Of a stretch of DNA of 64,000 bases, positions 1,528-9,023 are shown piece after piece. The translations under genes were made by a program, and so were the position numbers. The stretch comes from Aliarcobacter sp. Its GTDB lineage: Bacteria; Campylobacterota; Campylobacteria; Campylobacterales; Arcobacteraceae. Location of the stretch: contig JAQVBE010000005.1 in assembly GCA_028690445.1 (NCBI GenBank), forward strand, positions 1 to 64,000, given 5' to 3'. Under the pieces are notes generated by a model that was not told the origin of the DNA, searched no databases, and saw nothing but the letters and a program-made list of their open reading frames with translations. Each line of letters begins with the position of its first letter. The stretch's first letter is position 1.

Positions 1528-3039
1528 TCAACTTTCATTTTCTAATCTTATTAATTCTTCTTTTAAGAATTCTTTATCAATTTTATCTGAGTATTCTTTT
1601 GATTTTATTGACATTTTTTTACTAGAGTATAAAGAACTAAGTTGTAAACATATAAAGTTATATTCTTTTTTATCATTTTCAGAAAATTTTTTTAATTCAT
1701 TTTCAAAATAAGAAATGGATTGTTCTATATTTCCTTGAATTTCATATATTTCTGCAATTAACGCATAAATTTTTTCTTTATATATGTTGTTATCTTTGTC
1801 TAAATTTTCTTGAACTAAAAGAGACTTTTTATACATATCTAAAGCATAGTTATATTTTTTTGTTTCAAAATATAAATTTCCTAATTCCAAATAAATATCA
1901 GATACAATGTAATGATTTCTTTCAAAAATAAGTGTTGCTAATTCAAGTGACTTTTTATAATATTTTTCTGCATCAATATAATTGCCTAATGCTATATATA
2001 CTTGACCAATATTCTTATTAGTTATAGCTATATAATAATGCTTTTTGTTAATGGTATCTAGTATATCAATAGCTTTATTGTAATATGTAATCGCTTTTTC
2101 ATAATCAGTTTGATAGTAATAATTTAAACCAATACTATTGTATATAATTGCATAATCAATATGATTTTCATTTAAATTATTATTAATTAGTATATTTAAT
2201 GATTTCTTATATAAATCTAAAGCTTTTTTATATTCTTTTTCTTCTTGATATATACCACCTAAATTATTATAAAAAGAGAATAAATTATAATTATTTTTGG
2301 AATTTTGATTTTCAAATAATTCTATCACTCCTTCTAAAATTCTTTTAGTTTCTTGAATATTTGATTTATTTGAATAAATAAGATGTTTATTATTTAATGT
2401 TGATAAGAATATTCCAATATCATCAAGAGGATGATTGTTTTCCAAACTTAAATTATAATATTTTAATGCTTCTTTATAGTATCCTATATGAAAATATGAG
2501 TTTGCAATAGTGTTATAATACTTGGGATTTTTATCTAGTTTATACGCTATTTCAAAAGTTTTTATAGCATCCATATATGAACCTTGAGCATTTAATAAAT
2601 TAGCTATAGAATAATGTGATTCAGCAATAACTTCATCATTTTTATTAAAAATTAGATATTTAATTTTTAATGCTTTTTTTTCAAAATCTAATGCTTCATC
2701 ATATTTTGCTTCTTTTAAATACAGATTCGATATTTTGATATAAGTATCAATTACAAGTTTATGTTCTTCTTCAACAGTGTCTAATAAAATTTTTAGATAT
2801 TTTTCTAAATAAATATGTGCTTGTTCATAATTATTATTTTCAATTGCTTTTTGTGCTAAGGAATATTCTTCTTTACCTATGTTAAAAAAATTTAGATAGT
2901 AATCTGTTTTTTTTATATATTTAATTGATTTATCAAAGAAAGGTGCGAATAAAAAGAGTATTATTAAACTTCCAATTATTGTATTAAAAAGAAATTTGTT
3001 TATTTTATTATCTGGATTTATTAAATCTTTTATTTTCAA
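1528..3039 (-). CDS. Membrane-anchored tetratricopeptide-repeat protein
   Basis: A 503-residue protein with one N-terminal membrane helix (about residues 17-36) followed by about ten tetratricopeptide repeats covering residues 50-490, recognisable from repeated Y..A...Y..AL and N.A..Y...G.Y..A patterns, for example GLNYYYQTDYEKAITYYNKA and GNLYFETKKYNYALDMYKKS. TPR arrays bind other proteins; this one would be tethered to the membrane. It is divergent from the metallophosphoesterase operon at 3191, with 151 bp between the starts, so a shared control region is possible. It belongs to the island cargo. No catalytic domain is visible; the partner and role are unknown. Confidence 0.75.
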   Translation of the reverse strand: MKIKDLINPDNKINKFLFNTIIGSLIILFLFAPFFDKSIKYIKKTDYYLNFFNIGKEEYSLAQKAIENNNYEQAHIYLEKYLKILLDTVEEEHKLVIDTYIKISNLYLKEAKYDEALDFEKKALKIKYLIFNKNDEVIAESHYSIANLLNAQGSYMDAIKTFEIAYKLDKNPKYYNTIANSYFHIGYYKEALKYYNLSLENNHPLDDIGIFLSTLNNKHLIYSNKSNIQETKRILEGVIELFENQNSKNNYNLFSFYNNLGGIYQEEKEYKKALDLYKKSLNILINNNLNENHIDYAIIYNSIGLNYYYQTDYEKAITYYNKAIDILDTINKKHYYIAITNKNIGQVYIALGNYIDAEKYYKKSLELATLIFERNHYIVSDIYLELGNLYFETKKYNYALDMYKKSLLVQENLDKDNNIYKEKIYALIAEIYEIQGNIEQSISYFENELKKFSENDKKEYNFICLQLSSLYSSKKMSIKSKEYSDKIDKEFLKEELIRLENES

Positions 3040-3190: not shown

Positions 3191-4009
3191 ATGCATTTAC
3201 TACATATTTCTGACCCACATTTTTCAGCTGAAAAATATAATATTGAACCTCATAAAGCTTTTGAAGGTTTAGTAGAATTAATTAATAAAAAAAATGAAAA
3301 AGAAGATTTTTTTATACTCTTAACCGGAGATATAACATCTAAAGGGAATAAAAAAGGTTTTGACAAAGCTAATGAATTTTTTACTTTATTATTTGAGAAA
3401 ACAGGTATTAATCCTAAAAATTTTATATTGTGTCCTGGAAATCATGATTATGATAAAGAAAAACAGTTTGAAGATTTTAATAATTTTGCTTATAGTATAA
3501 GAAGAGATAGTGAATTTAAGTTTGACACAACAAATTCTAATAGAATTTATATAAAAGATGATATTTGTTTTTTATCAATTAATACTGCACATCATCTTGA
3601 AAATACAAATGGAAAAATTAATATTGACAATTTGCAAACTTTATTAAAAGAAAAATTTCAGGAAATAGAGAAAACAAAAATTAAAATTATATTATGTCAT
3701 CATCATATATTAAATTTATATGATAGTGATAGCTCTGGCATTAAAAATTCATATCAATTCGTTGAGTTGTTGAAACAATATAATTTTCATTTTTTATTTC
3801 ATGGGCATCAACATTCAAAACAAGTGTTTAAAATAAATGATATGCAAGTTAATAGTATTTCTTCATTGTTAGAAACTAGAGCAATATCAAATTTAATTGC
3901 TTATTATGAAATAAGAGACATAGATGATTTTGCAAAAGAAGAATATACATTTTTAAGAGATGAAACAAATTCAGAAGGTATACAAGGGAGTTATAGAAAA
4001 TTATGTTAG
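3191..4009 (+). CDS. Calcineurin-like metallophosphoesterase
   Basis: A 272-residue protein with the complete metal-binding set of the calcineurin-like superfamily: D8-x-H10 (SDPH), D47 (TGDIT), N84-H85-D86 (CPGNHD), an HHH at 170-172 and GHQH at 205-208. This fold hydrolyses phosphomono- or phosphodiesters, commonly with two metal ions; the layout resembles CpdA-type cyclic-nucleotide phosphodiesterases and other small nucleotide hydrolases, but the substrate cannot be read from sequence. It is the first gene of a five-gene operon: its end overlaps the next start by 7 bp. No signal peptide, so cytoplasmic. Confidence 0.8.
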   Translation: MHLLHISDPHFSAEKYNIEPHKAFEGLVELINKKNEKEDFFILLTGDITSKGNKKGFDKANEFFTLLFEKTGINPKNFILCPGNHDYDKEKQFEDFNNFAYSIRRDSEFKFDTTNSNRIYIKDDICFLSINTAHHLENTNGKINIDNLQTLLKEKFQEIEKTKIKIILCHHHILNLYDSDSSGIKNSYQFVELLKQYNFHFLFHGHQHSKQVFKINDMQVNSISSLLETRAISNLIAYYEIRDIDDFAKEEYTFLRDETNSEGIQGSYRKLC

Positions 4010-4629
4010 GTAAATTTATAGTGTTTGAGGGGATAGATGGTTCAGGAACTAGTACACAATCTGAACTTTTAAAGGATTTTTTGTTAGATAATAATATTAA
4101 TGCTGTTACTACTTGTGAACCATCAAGTGGTCCAATTGGAAATATGATTAGAGAGGGTTTTAAAAAAAGGTTGTCTTTTGTGAGTAATGAAAAATTATTT
4201 GATGAGCAAATGGCATATTTATTTGCAGCTGATAGGCATGACCATATTCACAATGAAGTAGATGGTATTTATTATTTAAATAATAAGGGTATTACCACAA
4301 TAAGTACTAGATATTTCTTTTCATCACTTGTTTATCATGTAAATAATGAAGATGAATATAATTTTGTTAAAAAACTTAATGAAAAATTTCCTTTACCTGA
4401 TTTAACTATATATATTGATAATCCAGTTGAAGTTTCTTTACAAAGAATTTCTTTAAGAGCTCACAGAGATGCATATGAAAATAAAGAAAAATTAGAAAAA
4501 GTAAAGCATAATTATAAAAGAGTTTTTGAGGAATATAGTGAAAACTTATTAGTTATAGATGGTTCAAAATCTATAAATGAAATTCATAATGAAATAAAGA
4601 AAAGGGTGGTAAATTTATATGGTATATGA
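4003..4629 (+). CDS. Thymidylate-kinase-like P-loop protein
   Basis: A 208-residue protein with thymidylate kinase family architecture: a P-loop region at residues 9-19 (EGIDGSGTSTQ), a CEPSSG motif at 38-43 like the TREPGG loop, the base/phosphate-binding AADRHDH at 76-82, and STRYFFSS at 101-108. Canonical family members phosphorylate dTMP to dTDP. The position usually held by the Walker A lysine is threonine (T16), so activity is uncertain, although I recall Tmk relatives carrying Thr here. It overlaps the phosphoesterase by 7 bp and the next gene by 11 bp. A chromosomal housekeeping tmk would be expected elsewhere, so this is an extra, island-borne copy. Confidence 0.75.
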   Translation: MLGKFIVFEGIDGSGTSTQSELLKDFLLDNNINAVTTCEPSSGPIGNMIREGFKKRLSFVSNEKLFDEQMAYLFAADRHDHIHNEVDGIYYLNNKGITTISTRYFFSSLVYHVNNEDEYNFVKKLNEKFPLPDLTIYIDNPVEVSLQRISLRAHRDAYENKEKLEKVKHNYKRVFEEYSENLLVIDGSKSINEIHNEIKKRVVNLYGI

Positions 4630-5536
4630 AGAAATTACAGATTTAGAAGATATTTCGATTAAAGCTAAAGAAAAAATTGGGTCAGATGCATATTTAATAA
4701 ATTTTGATTTAAAAGTTACTTTTAAGAAAAACTTAATAAATAATTGTATGAGTAGTGTTTATCAAGATGCTCTTGATTTTCAAAATCCTGTTCGTCCTGA
4801 TACATTACATATGAATCATGGGGAATACATACATAAATGTGGTGATGGAATAAATAATGTTATTAATCAATTAAAAGAAAAACATGCTAGTAATAGAGCT
4901 ATTATTTCTTTGATAAATCAAGAAAATATTATGGAGAGCAAAGATACACCTATTCCTTCATTTATGATTCTTCAATTTTCTATAGAAGATGGTACTAAAT
5001 TATATCTTACAACTTATTTTAGAGCATTAGAAGTAAGTAAATTTTTAAGAATTAATACTGAAGAAATTAGACAAATTATTGAAAAAATATTAGCTAAGAA
5101 TATACAATTAAATGAAATTTATTTGAATATATTTGCTTTTAGAGCATATATTGATTTAGATATTAATCCTTTGAAAAAACCAAAAATTGATACATATGAT
5201 AAGCAAGATATTTTGAAATATTTATTAAAAGAGCAATCTAATTTAAATGAATTAATAGATTTATTAAATGAAAAAAATACTTCATCAACTGTAATCAAAT
5301 ATCTTTCTTTTCAGAATATTATAGATTGGATTAATGATAGTAATTTTAATTCAATAATTCACTCTGACTTAAAAAAACCATTAGTTAATCAATATTTGAA
5401 AGAAATAGTAGATATATTAGTAGAATTAGAAAAATTAAGAGAACAAACTTCTCACAATGAGTTAATAGATGAAAAACAAAAATTATATAAAAATAATTTA
5501 AATCAATTAATAAAGGTGTTAAGAAATGACTCTTGA
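4619..5536 (+). CDS. Thymidylate-synthase-like protein lacking the catalytic cysteine
   Basis: A 305-residue protein whose middle part (about residues 60-180) follows thymidylate synthase order: HGEY, a helix, SNRAIISL (like the SRR segment), a linker, then PIPSFMILQF where functional enzymes have PC....QF, then a strand and YFRALEV where enzymes have the RS.D motif. The nucleophilic cysteine position is Ser114, and the second arginine and the RSxD aspartate are also not conserved. It is therefore probably not a methylating synthase; a binding, regulatory or altered catalytic role is inference. The C-terminal 110 residues are helical and unknown. Overlaps both neighbours by 11 bp. Confidence 0.55.
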   Translation: MVYEEITDLEDISIKAKEKIGSDAYLINFDLKVTFKKNLINNCMSSVYQDALDFQNPVRPDTLHMNHGEYIHKCGDGINNVINQLKEKHASNRAIISLINQENIMESKDTPIPSFMILQFSIEDGTKLYLTTYFRALEVSKFLRINTEEIRQIIEKILAKNIQLNEIYLNIFAFRAYIDLDINPLKKPKIDTYDKQDILKYLLKEQSNLNELIDLLNEKNTSSTVIKYLSFQNIIDWINDSNFNSIIHSDLKKPLVNQYLKEIVDILVELEKLREQTSHNELIDEKQKLYKNNLNQLIKVLRNDS

Positions 5537-5864
5537 TGAAATAAAAGAATTTCAGAAAAAGTTTGATTTACAATTTAAAGGAAATATTGAATTTCATGAA
5601 GAAATAGATGAAACAAATATTGAGCCATTGGAACATTTAATAGTTTGTATGTTAGGTGAATTTGGTGAATTCTCAAATTTAGTAAAAAAAGTTAAGAGAG
5701 GGGATTTTACCTTAAATGAAGTTAAAGGGGAAATTAACGAAGAATTTATAGATATATTTATTTATCTAATAAAAGTTGCTAATCAATTAGATATAAATAT
5801 AGAGAATGAATATTTAAAGAAAATGTCAAAGAATAAACTTAAGTTTGAAAAGTTCTTAAAATGA
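5526..5864 (+). CDS. MazG-like nucleotide pyrophosphohydrolase
   Basis: A 112-residue all-helical protein with the MazG/all-alpha NTP pyrophosphohydrolase signature: E45-F-G-E48 on one helix and E72-E73-F-I-D76 on the next, followed by the usual DINIE...K...NK.KF ending. Such enzymes split (d)NTPs to (d)NMP and pyrophosphate with Mg2+. Length fits single-domain members. It overlaps the preceding gene by 11 bp and the thymidylate synthase by 4 bp (ATGA). In this operon it could supply dUMP/dTMP or remove a particular dNTP; the substrate is not readable from sequence. Confidence 0.75.
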   Translation: MTLDEIKEFQKKFDLQFKGNIEFHEEIDETNIEPLEHLIVCMLGEFGEFSNLVKKVKRGDFTLNEVKGEINEEFIDIFIYLIKVANQLDINIENEYLKKMSKNKLKFEKFLK

Positions 5865-7195
5865 TTTATATTAGTGAAAATAGTTTTAATGCACTTTATT
5901 ATAAGTTGTTACAAATAGCATATAATAAAGATATCCAATATTCAGATTCTCGTGTGGGCAATGTAAAAGATTTAGGAAAAGTTGTTTATCAAATAAAAAA
6001 TGATTCATTTAGGTTATGTTTTTTAAAAGAGAGAAATATTAATCCATTTTTTGCTTTGACCGAATTTTCTTGGATTATAGAAGGTAGTAATTTAGTTAAG
6101 CCTTTACAATATTTTATTAAAGATTATGATAAATTTTCTGATGATAATGAAACGTTAAATGGTGCATATGGATTTAGACTTCTAAAATATTTTAAGATTA
6201 ATCAATTAGAAAAAGCTATATCAGAATTAAATGAAAATAGAGAATCTAGAAGAGTAGTTCTAACTATGTATTCACCTAATGATTTAAATAAAACTTCAAA
6301 AGATATTCCCTGTAATACTACTATATATTTAAAAATTAAAGATAATAAATTAGATATAACAATTTTAAATCGTTCAAATGATTTATATCTAGGGGTACCT
6401 TATAATGTTTTTATTTTTTATTTATTACAACTTTACATAGCAGAAAAACTAAATTGTGATATTGGAACACAAACACATTTCACAGATTCTCTACACCTTT
6501 ATACAAAAGATTTAGAAAAAGTAGAAAAAATCATTAATAATAATTCATTAGAAGAGATAGAATATATTGAAAATAATATAGGGAAATTTGATATTAGTCA
6601 GTATATTTCTGAAAATCATAAAAAAATTTTAGAAAAAGATTATTGTAATTTGAATTTAGATATATTTAAAGAAATTTTTAAAATAATAGAAGATGTTAAA
6701 AATAATCATAATATCAATTTTTATACAATTCCTGAAAATCTGATGGGTTATGTTGTATATAATTGGTTAAAACAAAAAAAAGATATAAATTTCCAAACGA
6801 TGGATTATTTTGAAAATATTAACAAAAGGATAGAATTGAAAAATACACAATTATTAGAATCTCTAAAGACAAAAGAAAAGAGTGAAATTATAAATGTTGT
6901 AGATAAATTAAATAACGAGTTATTGCCTAACTTTTCATATTTAAAGAATGTAATTGCATGTAAGCAAGGTATTTTTTCTTTAGATTTGAGTAATGAAAGT
7001 AAAATTATTAATATTGCTTTATTTGTTATTATAATAGAAGGAGTAGCTGAATATATTTATGACAGAGAAGTTAGAGAATCTTTAATGAAAAAAATTAAAG
7101 GTGTAATGTCAATATATGAAATAGACTTGGAAGAAGTTAGCTATTTTAATAAGTATGAAGAGGAAATAAGAAATTTTATAAACTCAGAAAAATAG
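5861..7195 (+). CDS. Thymidylate synthase family protein with long C-terminal extension
   Basis: A 444-residue protein. Residues 1-225 align with ThyA landmarks: R31, E68 (TEFSW), YG at 103-104, ESRR at 128-131, catalytic C151 in IPCN, RSND at 171-174, GVPYN at 178-182 and HLY at 212-214. N182 is the residue favouring uracil over cytosine, so dUMP is the likely substrate rather than dCMP. Either methylation or hydroxymethylation is possible in this family. Residues 235-444 are a mostly helical extension that I do not recognise and that replaces the normal short C-terminal tail. Last gene of the operon; ATGA overlap with MazG; a terminator hairpin follows. Confidence 0.75.
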   Translation: MIYISENSFNALYYKLLQIAYNKDIQYSDSRVGNVKDLGKVVYQIKNDSFRLCFLKERNINPFFALTEFSWIIEGSNLVKPLQYFIKDYDKFSDDNETLNGAYGFRLLKYFKINQLEKAISELNENRESRRVVLTMYSPNDLNKTSKDIPCNTTIYLKIKDNKLDITILNRSNDLYLGVPYNVFIFYLLQLYIAEKLNCDIGTQTHFTDSLHLYTKDLEKVEKIINNNSLEEIEYIENNIGKFDISQYISENHKKILEKDYCNLNLDIFKEIFKIIEDVKNNHNINFYTIPENLMGYVVYNWLKQKKDINFQTMDYFENINKRIELKNTQLLESLKTKEKSEIINVVDKLNNELLPNFSYLKNVIACKQGIFSLDLSNESKIINIALFVIIIEGVAEYIYDREVRESLMKKIKGVMSIYEIDLEEVSYFNKYEEEIRNFINSEK

Positions 7196-7210: not shown

Positions 7211-7240
7211 AATAGAGAAAAAGAGTTTCTTTTCTCTATT
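7211..7240. terminator. Bidirectional terminator between the operon and the integrase
   Basis: AATAGAGAAA at 7211-7220 pairs with TTTCTCTATT at 7231-7240; further A/T pairs close a short loop around 7224-7227. It lies between the convergent thymidylate synthase and integrase genes. Confidence 0.6.
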
Positions 7241-7248
7241 AGTGTCTA

Positions 7249-8514
7249 TTATAAAATATTTTTATCTAACCAATCAGCCCACCAATGCATCAATTCTTTT
7301 TTTTCTTCAAAATATTTCATTTTAGAACTTCTATTATAAGAGGCTTTAACTTGATTTCGTTCCACATGTGCTAAACAAGATTCAATAATATCACTGTTAA
7401 ATCCATGTTCTTTTACTTTTTCATGACATATTGTTGAAAATGTAGACCTAAATCCATGTGTACAATGTCTATTTTTATATCCTAACTTCATCAAAGAATG
7501 ATTTAATGTTGCAGTATTGATACATTTAAGATTTGAAGTAGGAGAGGGGAATACATATTTACTTTTATGTGCTGAAAAAGGCTCAATACTTTTTAATATT
7601 TCAATAGCTTGTTTAGACAGAGGCATAATAAAATCTTTTTTAGTTTTCATTTTATTAGCTGGAATATCTAATGTTTCTGTTTCAAAATTTATTTCTTTCC
7701 ATTGAAGTGAACATAAATTAAAAGGTCTTAGAGCAATATATGGAGCTAAATTTAAAGCTATAATTGTTGTTATATCTGCTTTAAATAAATCTTCAAAAGC
7801 TTTAATATCTTGCATTAGTTCTTTTGTTTCATTTTCATTTGTAATAGCATTATAATGATTATCTTTTGTAGATATAAGTATGTTTTTTTTATCAATATCT
7901 GCAATGATATTATGTTTTACATAGTTATAAGTAACTGCAAATTTATATATTCTATTAAAATTACCCATTAATTTTTCAGTGGAACCAAAAAGTTCTTTTT
8001 GATTCATTCTATCAATGATATTTAAAATATCACTTATTATAATAGTTTCTATAGGTTTATTTCCTATATATGGATAAGCATGATTTTCAATTAGATTTAT
8101 AACTTTTTTAAGAGTTGTTTCTTGCCATTCAATTTTCATTCGAGAAAGCCATTTTTCACAAATATTTTTAAATGTGTTATCAGTATTTATATTTGATAAA
8201 TTTTTATCAATAATAGGATTTATTTTTTGTTTTAAAAGTTCTCTTGTTTTATCTCTTAGAGTTCTAGCTTCACTTAATGATGTTTCAGGATAAACACCAA
8301 AACTCATAGATTTTCTTTTGTTTTCAAAAGTAAAGTCAAATCTAAAAAATTTTGTACCATTTGTTTTTACAACTAAATATAAACTTTGTCCGTCACTTAA
8401 TTTATATTCTTTTTCTTTTGGTTTAGATGCTTTAATTTCTTTATCAGTAAGGGGTTTTACAACTTTTGGCATTTTTACGGTATCACTTTTAAATAAATTG
8501 TTTAGTACCGTCAA
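7249..8514 (-). CDS. P4-type tyrosine integrase (site-specific recombinase)
   Basis: A 421-residue recombinase with the DUF4102-type N-terminal arm domain (LTDKEIKASKPKEKEYKLSD, then LYLVV...KFFRFDF), a core-binding domain, and a catalytic domain with R263 (ALRPFNL), a lysine at about 288-293, H353-GF-R356, H383 (LAHVERN) and nucleophile Y393 (ASYNRS). All catalytic residues are present, so it is probably active. It ends the mobile island and lies 123 bp from the 3' end of ssrA, a classic target for this family. A downstream ATG (MPKVVK, residue 15) is an alternative start. Confidence 0.92.
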   Translation of the reverse strand: MTVLNNLFKSDTVKMPKVVKPLTDKEIKASKPKEKEYKLSDGQSLYLVVKTNGTKFFRFDFTFENKRKSMSFGVYPETSLSEARTLRDKTRELLKQKINPIIDKNLSNINTDNTFKNICEKWLSRMKIEWQETTLKKVINLIENHAYPYIGNKPIETIIISDILNIIDRMNQKELFGSTEKLMGNFNRIYKFAVTYNYVKHNIIADIDKKNILISTKDNHYNAITNENETKELMQDIKAFEDLFKADITTIIALNLAPYIALRPFNLCSLQWKEINFETETLDIPANKMKTKKDFIMPLSKQAIEILKSIEPFSAHKSKYVFPSPTSNLKCINTATLNHSLMKLGYKNRHCTHGFRSTFSTICHEKVKEHGFNSDIIESCLAHVERNQVKASYNRSSKMKYFEEKKELMHWWADWLDKNIL

Positions 8515-8637: not shown

Positions 8638-9023
8638 TGGTGGAGAAGACGGGAATCGAACCCGTGTCTTAAAATATCTGACTTTAATATCTATACATGC
8701 TTTTTAGTAGTTTGATTTAATTTAAATAAAGTACAACTAAACTTTAAATAAACGATCTTTTATTTATTGGTCCTGACTTAAAAGATAATTATCAAGATAT
8801 ATCTGTTTGTTTTGTTATACTTCAAACCCTACTCTAACAGCTAATCTGTAGGTGAAGCAGAACCCGTTTCGATTAAGAAACGAGGGGAGCTTTACGCTGC
8901 AACCCTCATAGGAACATAATTGCTATTATTTGCATTTAAACATTTTTTTGAGCCGCTTAACGATATGCTCAGACCGACATGCAACTAAAATCAAAATACT
9001 CTAATCGAAGCCAAAACTTCCCC
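8638..9023 (-). ncRNA. ssrA: Transfer-messenger RNA (tmRNA)
   Basis: Read on the minus strand, the RNA starts GGGGAAG at 9023 and ends CTTCTCCACCA at 8638; these ends pair as a tRNA-like acceptor stem with one G-U, and GGGTTCGATTCCC near the 3' end forms the T-arm. A tag frame follows: GCA at 8931-8933 through TAA at 8892-8894 encodes ANNSNYVPMRVAA. tmRNA with SmpB frees stalled ribosomes and marks the incomplete protein for proteolysis; ClpP is encoded at 15283. The encoded CCA and 3' end face the integrase, so the island is integrated at this gene's 3' end. Confidence 0.95.

Follow-up and report, generated by a model that had tools for sequence, protein, structure and literature searches.

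Why should a bacterium that already carries its own genes for thymidylate synthesis also hold, on a mobile island, five overlapping genes drawn from nucleotide-enzyme families? We address this question for an operon at positions 3191–7195 of a 64,000-nucleotide stretch of Aliarcobacter sp. (assembly GCA_028690445.1, contig JAQVBE010000005.1, positions 1–64,000; the whole stretch is called the window below), which was singled out in an initial annotation made from the DNA letters alone. We propose that this is a mobile system acting through nucleotides, most probably against phages, whose centre is an enzyme that converts deoxyuridine monophosphate (dUMP) to its 5-hydroxymethyl derivative; we hold this composite reading with moderate confidence, seeing its chances as roughly even, and grade its parts separately where they are discussed. 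The five open reading frames (ORFs) lie at the places first reported for them, with successive overlaps of 7, 11, 11 and 4 bp, and are listed here with the E-values of their family matches:

3191..4009, + strand, calcineurin-like metallophosphoesterase, 272 aa (Pfam Metallophos, 3.9e-19)
4003..4629, + strand, thymidylate-kinase family protein, 208 aa (Thymidylate_kin, 1.8e-43; TIGR00041, 1.9e-48)
4619..5536, + strand, thymidylate synthase (TS)-fold protein without the catalytic Cys, called degTS below, 305 aa (weak match to Thymidylat_synt, 1.5e-4)
5526..5864, + strand, MazG-type nucleotide pyrophosphohydrolase, 112 aa (dUTPase_2, 1.7e-3, and MazG-like, 1.2e-2, both below cut-off)
5861..7195, + strand, TS-superfamily enzyme, predicted dUMP 5-hydroxymethylase, 444 aa (Thymidylat_synt, 8e-32)

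The predicted hydroxymethylase and its partner proteins

The last gene had been described as a full-motif thymidylate synthase, and the catalytic residues are indeed kept: compared to E. coli ThyA it retains Cys146, the Arg residues, Asn177 and His207/Tyr209 (C151, R130, R131, R171 and N182 are among these in its own numbering). The pattern around them, however, is that of a dUMP hydroxymethylase, with Tyr in place of W80, Asp of L143, Asn of H147 and Asn of Q165. The same residues occupy positions 143, 147, 165 and 177 in SPO1 gp29, which is annotated as a dUMP hydroxymethylase and also shares position 146, and in the TS of phage PaMx11, although both of these have Met at position 80. T4 deoxycytidine monophosphate (dCMP) hydroxymethylase and a plasmid TS linked to aGPT-PPlase display Thr, Met and Asp at 147, 165 and 177. 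Two of these positions are informative, since N177 dictates dUMP over dCMP and position 147 is the other site that separates the TS of modified from that of unmodified DNA contigs (PMC8670742). A tree of 43 sequences places the enzymes of the three operon copies (from the window, a Spirochaetia genome and E. coli, see below) in one clade (100/98), which is sister to the phage uracil-type enzymes including SPO1 gp29 (joined at 99/99) and stands apart from canonical TS. The best solved relative is the cytidine monophosphate (CMP) 5-hydroxymethylase MilA (PDB 5jnh, 5b6d; 4e-25), ahead of true thymidylate synthases (1e-22), although the substrate of MilA is a cytosine nucleotide and its residue at the position of Asn182 in the operon enzyme is Asp.

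Because of this residue pattern, the position in the tree, the nearest solved relative and the role of positions 177 and 147, we consider it probable that the enzyme makes 5-hydroxymethyl-dUMP, which agrees well with the modified-pyrimidine model, one of two offered in the initial annotation. Residues ~288–444 (window 6722–7195) form a helical C-terminal extension, shared only with the Spirochaetia copy, for which no convincing family match was found.

The third protein, degTS, had been described as TS-like without the catalytic cysteine, and the wider comparison bears this out: all three copies have Ser at that position (Ser114 in the window copy), and the N-terminal TS segment is missing as well. 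It matches TS families weakly but consistently, and its profile scores an E. coli TS chain with Cys146 changed to Ser above the wild type (20.8 vs ~18 bits). A low-confidence structural model matches almost only TS folds, the top one being a phage dCMP hydroxylase at a borderline E-value of 9e-4. Kinship with the 5-hydroxy-dCMP synthase homologue of RB69 was considered and rejected, as the two have the TS fold in common but the RB69 protein retains Cys. The C-terminus of degTS is helical over ~115 residues, of which only about ten do not vary between the three copies, R274, S278 and H279 among them.

The pair R274-x4-H279 lies at the junction of helices 3 and 4 in the model, and HEPN RNases carry an Rx4-6H motif at the end of helix 3 (PMC3710099), so this end of degTS is perhaps HEPN-like. 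The chance of finding one invariant Arg and His in this order at a spacing of 5–7 over ~115 positions is ~0.03, a figure calculated post hoc. The invariant pair would also suit a toxin–antitoxin or abortive infection module, in which degTS is an RNase toxin held in check by its TS-fold domain while the controlling ligand is produced or broken down by the nucleotide enzymes. Such a module is consistent with degTS, the phosphoesterase and the TS enzyme being the fastest-changing members of the set. However, no HEPN profile in Pfam matches degTS, the residue after R274 is not conserved (it is Cys in the Spirochaetia copy), the model is of low confidence and only three divergent copies are available, and we judge this explanation improbable.

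The metallophosphoesterase retains D8, H10, D47, GNHD at 83–86, H170–172 and HGHQH at 204–208, all invariant in the three copies. Its closest curated families are DS-9A and DS-8, both of which protect E. coli only when the phosphatase site is intact (PMC13092281). Against the DS9_1 model (NCBIfam NF053862) it scores 85.9 bits (2.7e-24) compared to an equivalog cut-off of 420 bits, and is thus a relative rather than a member. Its profile also finds Mre11/SbcD nucleases, weakly (2e-5).

The MazG protein retains E45, E48, E73 and D76, and its nearest solved structures are small MazG-like proteins (2q73/2q5z) and deoxycytidine triphosphate (dCTP) pyrophosphatase 1. SPO1 gp22.1 was tried as a relative and showed no relation by BLASTP. 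A Priestia megaterium plasmid carries a different operon with a MazG gene (L166:4208-6468), together with a dCTP-deaminase/dUTPase-like protein with a hydrophobic segment and a flavin mononucleotide (FMN) oxidoreductase; it has the MazG subfamily in common with the window (3e-23) but not the other parts, and was set aside as a relative.

The second protein is a clear member of its family (TIGR00041, 164.8 bits vs a cut-off of 83.25). The initial annotation was right that a key residue is altered, as the Walker A (P-loop) Lys is replaced by Thr, but not in treating this as degeneracy: the housekeeping tmk genes of several spirochaetes have the same Thr. In a tree the operon kinases nest (97/94) within a clade of spirochaete kinases with Thr at this position, which also contains the own tmk of the metagenome-assembled genome (MAG) that carries the Spirochaetia copy. 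This nesting, and the presence of the MAG's own gene in the clade, indicate that the kinase gene probably came from a spirochaete-like source, and on this phylogeny the Lys-to-Thr change is a normal trait of the parent clade, not decay or a sign of inactivity. Recent separate exchange of the kinase gene was also considered and rejected, since at synonymous sites it has diverged as far as the genes beside it and it is the protein that is conserved. As an observation in its own right, the housekeeping thymidylate kinases of one spirochaete clade (genomes L047, L066, L070, L071, L072, L073 and L074) read GAGTTTQ or similar, with Thr for the Walker A Lys, an unusual state for a P-loop kinase that is essential.

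A predicted dUMP hydroxymethylase, a kinase and a MazG protein are together the toolkit with which phages replace thymine, and the operon might accordingly serve base modification, placing 5-hydroxymethyluracil in host DNA or in that of the mobile element while the phosphoesterase acts as a nuclease that discriminates between modified and unmodified DNA, much like a restriction-modification system that relies on a replaced base. The weak match of the phosphoesterase to Mre11/SbcD would fit such a nuclease. Yet the host retains thyX and tmk, so that replacement would be partial; the family scan found no hydroxymethyluracil DNA kinase, transferase or aGPT-PPlase among the operon genes; and a conserved inactive TS protein would be left unexplained. 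We regard this explanation as unlikely.

Island, distribution and selection

Two further features place the operon on an integrated island:

7249..8514, - strand, tyrosine integrase of the island (Phage_integrase, 2.5e-19; Arm-DNA-bind_3, 4.6e-22)
8638..9023, - strand, tmRNA gene ssrA, whose 3' end is the likely attachment site (ARAGORN)

The integrase comes after the operon, on the opposite strand, and directly adjoins the 3' end of ssrA. Position 1 of the window is the start of its contig (C15), so the island lacks its left part here, and no second ssrA 3' end that could represent the other attachment copy was found when up to 3 mismatches were allowed. Within the island a large TPR-repeat protein (1528-3039, - strand; ORF and family scan) with an N-terminal hydrophobic stretch diverges from the operon. 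The single promoter and single terminator originally assigned to the five genes were not confirmed: promoter-like sites are close to the shuffled expectation (47 vs 41), no standard terminator was found for the operon, and an AT-rich hairpin at ~7211–7240 folds no better than chance (z -1.26).

The host genome has its own tmk with a normal P-loop on contig C17 and thyX on contig C24, and because of these two genes the operon is not housekeeping thymidylate synthesis, as had been supposed from the outset, although its genes are the sole ThyA-type genes of the genome.

Conservation rests on three divergent copies, those of the window, a Spirochaetia MAG (L044) and E. coli. The MAG has all five genes in the same order on a short, 5.7-kb contig, with overlaps of 7, 5, 11 and 4 bp (the 5 applying to an assumed start codon). 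Two E. coli plasmid records, one of them typed as IncHI1B, have a four-gene core in the same order (phosphoesterase, degTS, MazG, TS) without the kinase, and the core is also present in 5 of 5,426 E. coli genomes, where it is always chromosomal and shares at least 99.8% identity with the plasmid copy. The G+C content of the E. coli operon is 33%, compared to 48% in the surrounding plasmid stretch. Identity to the window proteins in the MAG and E. coli copies respectively is 44% and 32% for the phosphoesterase, 52% and 40% for degTS, 74% and 54% for MazG and 52% and 44% for the TS enzyme, while the kinase is 82% identical in the MAG. Since the five-gene order recurs in the MAG and the four-gene core in E. 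coli, the gene set is more than a chance assembly; it is neither confined to this genome nor always the sole tmk and thyA of its host. With an integrase and ssrA here, and plasmids and E. coli chromosomes elsewhere, the operon is mobile across three distant lineages, in line with the mobile setting first suggested for it. Just downstream of one chromosomal E. coli copy (L042) are two ORFs that are fragments of the defence gene Avs2, and an ORF near another copy (L043) matches the defence candidate PDC-S50. The setting on an integrase-bearing island, on plasmids and beside Avs2 fragments is of the kind expected for anti-phage defence.

The operon is nevertheless very rare. Whole-genome scans covering 397 genomes from the phylum of the window and 345 from that of the MAG turned up no other copy, and nor did scans of 399 genomes at the level of order and 395 at that of class, one chance match aside; the exception, a match for degTS in L163, is an ORF that reads as an unrelated helical protein. 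Among 104 genomes of the window's family the only full-length TS match is the window's own. Scans of viral contigs with degTS, phosphoesterase, MazG and kinase gave no matches, and degTS had none in phage records. An origin of the whole set in phages was rejected, as 80 viral contig loci with a related TS carry none of the partners in the stretches examined.

Between the window and MAG copies, nonsynonymous divergence (dN) is 0.14 for the kinase, 0.20 for MazG and 0.42–0.47 for the phosphoesterase, degTS and TS, and synonymous divergence (dS) is 0.9–1.5 where estimable. The resulting dN/dS values of ~0.09 for the kinase and 0.36–0.49 for the phosphoesterase, degTS and TS are rough, as synonymous sites are near saturation. 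All measurable genes are under purifying selection. We regard the phosphoesterase, degTS and TS as the specific core of the system, which changes fastest as expected for the parts of an arms race.

It could instead be proposed that the operon is metabolic cargo, serving pyrimidine salvage or pool-balancing for the element or the host without any anti-phage role. All its families are indeed nucleotide enzymes, and the same MazG subfamily lies beside the dCTP-deaminase/dUTPase-like gene on the Priestia plasmid. But a host with tmk and thyX has such functions already, the TS enzyme lacks the residues of a true thymidylate synthase, and neither a conserved inactive TS protein nor a DS-9-like phosphoesterase is expected of such cargo, any more than rarity, mobility and the Avs2 fragments beside one E. 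coli copy. We consider this explanation very doubtful.

Proposed function and known parallels

We return to an anti-phage system built round a dUMP 5-hydroxymethylase, for which the context (Avs2 fragments and a phosphoesterase of the DS-8/DS-9 kind) suggests a role in defence, which we hold to be somewhat more probable than not. In the proposed mechanism, the TS enzyme (5861-7195) would convert dUMP to 5-hydroxymethyl-dUMP, which the operon kinase, or the host tmk in E. coli, would phosphorylate towards hydroxymethyl-deoxyuridine triphosphate (hydroxymethyl-dUTP). MazG would degrade pyrimidine deoxynucleoside triphosphates (dNTPs), whether dUTP, thymidine triphosphate (dTTP) or surplus modified dNTP. 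The outcome would be either disturbance of the dTTP pool needed by a replicating phage, or the feeding of an abnormal pyrimidine nucleotide to that phage. The inactive degTS could act as a switch by binding a pyrimidine nucleotide or pairing with the active TS enzyme, and the effectors would be the phosphoesterase and possibly also the HEPN-like end of degTS. The gene set, its conservation and mobility, the residue pattern and the tree positions are results of computation; the enzyme product and the defence role go beyond these as probable readings, and the switch, the effectors and the order of events are a tentative hypothesis. More specific still, and more speculative, is an immune system of bacteria in which 5-hydroxymethyl-dUMP, otherwise a phage building block, would be made as a poison or signal, degTS with its RNase-like tail would read the pyrimidine pool and the phosphoesterase would execute or reset the response.

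The closest parallel to the first steps is the 5-hydroxymethyl-dUMP pathway of phages. Infection by phiW-14 brings a 5-hydroxymethyl-dUMP synthase and a dTTPase, which together remodel the pool (PMC5977210), and the operon likewise combines a predicted hydroxymethyl-dUMP enzyme with pool enzymes. It differs in being bacterial and mobile and in adding degTS and the phosphoesterase.

Nucleotide-based defence, including a system with a TS, is already known. A defence screen of 2026 counts TS as one of the ten defence domains that it newly validated, and the legend of its TS-system figure also lists a dNMP kinase, a 5-hydroxymethyldeoxyuridine (5-hmdU) DNA kinase and NMAD (PMC13092281). For this DefensePredictor TS system the legend names neither MazG nor an inactive TS. 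The operon may overlap with it, although the portion available of that report does not describe phosphoesterase, MazG and inactive TS as one system. In the same text, the phosphatase of DS-8 is fused to a NACHT domain, unlike that of the operon, and that of DS-9 is paired with a HAD phosphatase, which none of the five operon genes encodes. The nucleotide-centred conflict systems of Burroughs 2015, as reported there, resemble the operon in gathering nucleotide enzymes. No system combining these parts was found in the literature searched.

Plasmid operons of TS, aGPT-PPlase3 and ImmA/IrrE also carry a hydroxymethylase-type TS-superfamily enzyme, but with cytosine-type residues (Asp at 177) and other partners. 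Such TS/aGPT-PPlase3 operons with a nearby ImmA/IrrE peptidase were observed in Rhizobium (L040:5001-8116), Pantoea (L041:4824-7797) and Leptospira (L039:6034-9834). Plasmid clusters of Geobacillus (L037:3781-9743) and Streptococcus salivarius (L038:5715-9399) contain a pair of TS-family genes, of which one is divergent, along with a thymidylate-kinase-like protein and PqqD-like proteins; QueA-like genes lie close by.

Several points weigh against the system that we propose. It is not possible to separate hydroxymethylase from synthase with certainty by sequence (PMC5977210), and the AlphaFold models of degTS and the TS enzyme are poor (pLDDT 45 and 39) and too weak for detail. PADLOC lacks models for degTS, MazG and TS, and its matches to the phosphoesterase and kinase are partial or weak; the lack of a Pfam HEPN match for degTS counts here as well. 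Copies are very sparsely distributed (1 genome of 397 and 1 of 345 in the two phyla), the seven E. coli copies all appear to belong to one recent lineage, and the E. coli form of the operon does without the kinase. The E. coli copies may also be damaged, with the C-terminal extension of the TS enzyme cut off, as the gene ends at a mobile-element remnant (L036:12918-13064, L042:18027-18171); this fragment was considered as a lost fifth gene and rejected, being the remnant itself.

The proposal concerns a defined operon of four to five genes that can be cloned and tested directly, and it names the reaction to assay. It also suggests what an inactive thymidylate-synthase fold may do, namely serve as a nucleotide switch. 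If it is correct, bacteria have taken over a modified-pyrimidine pathway of phages as a mobile system, probably for use against phages.

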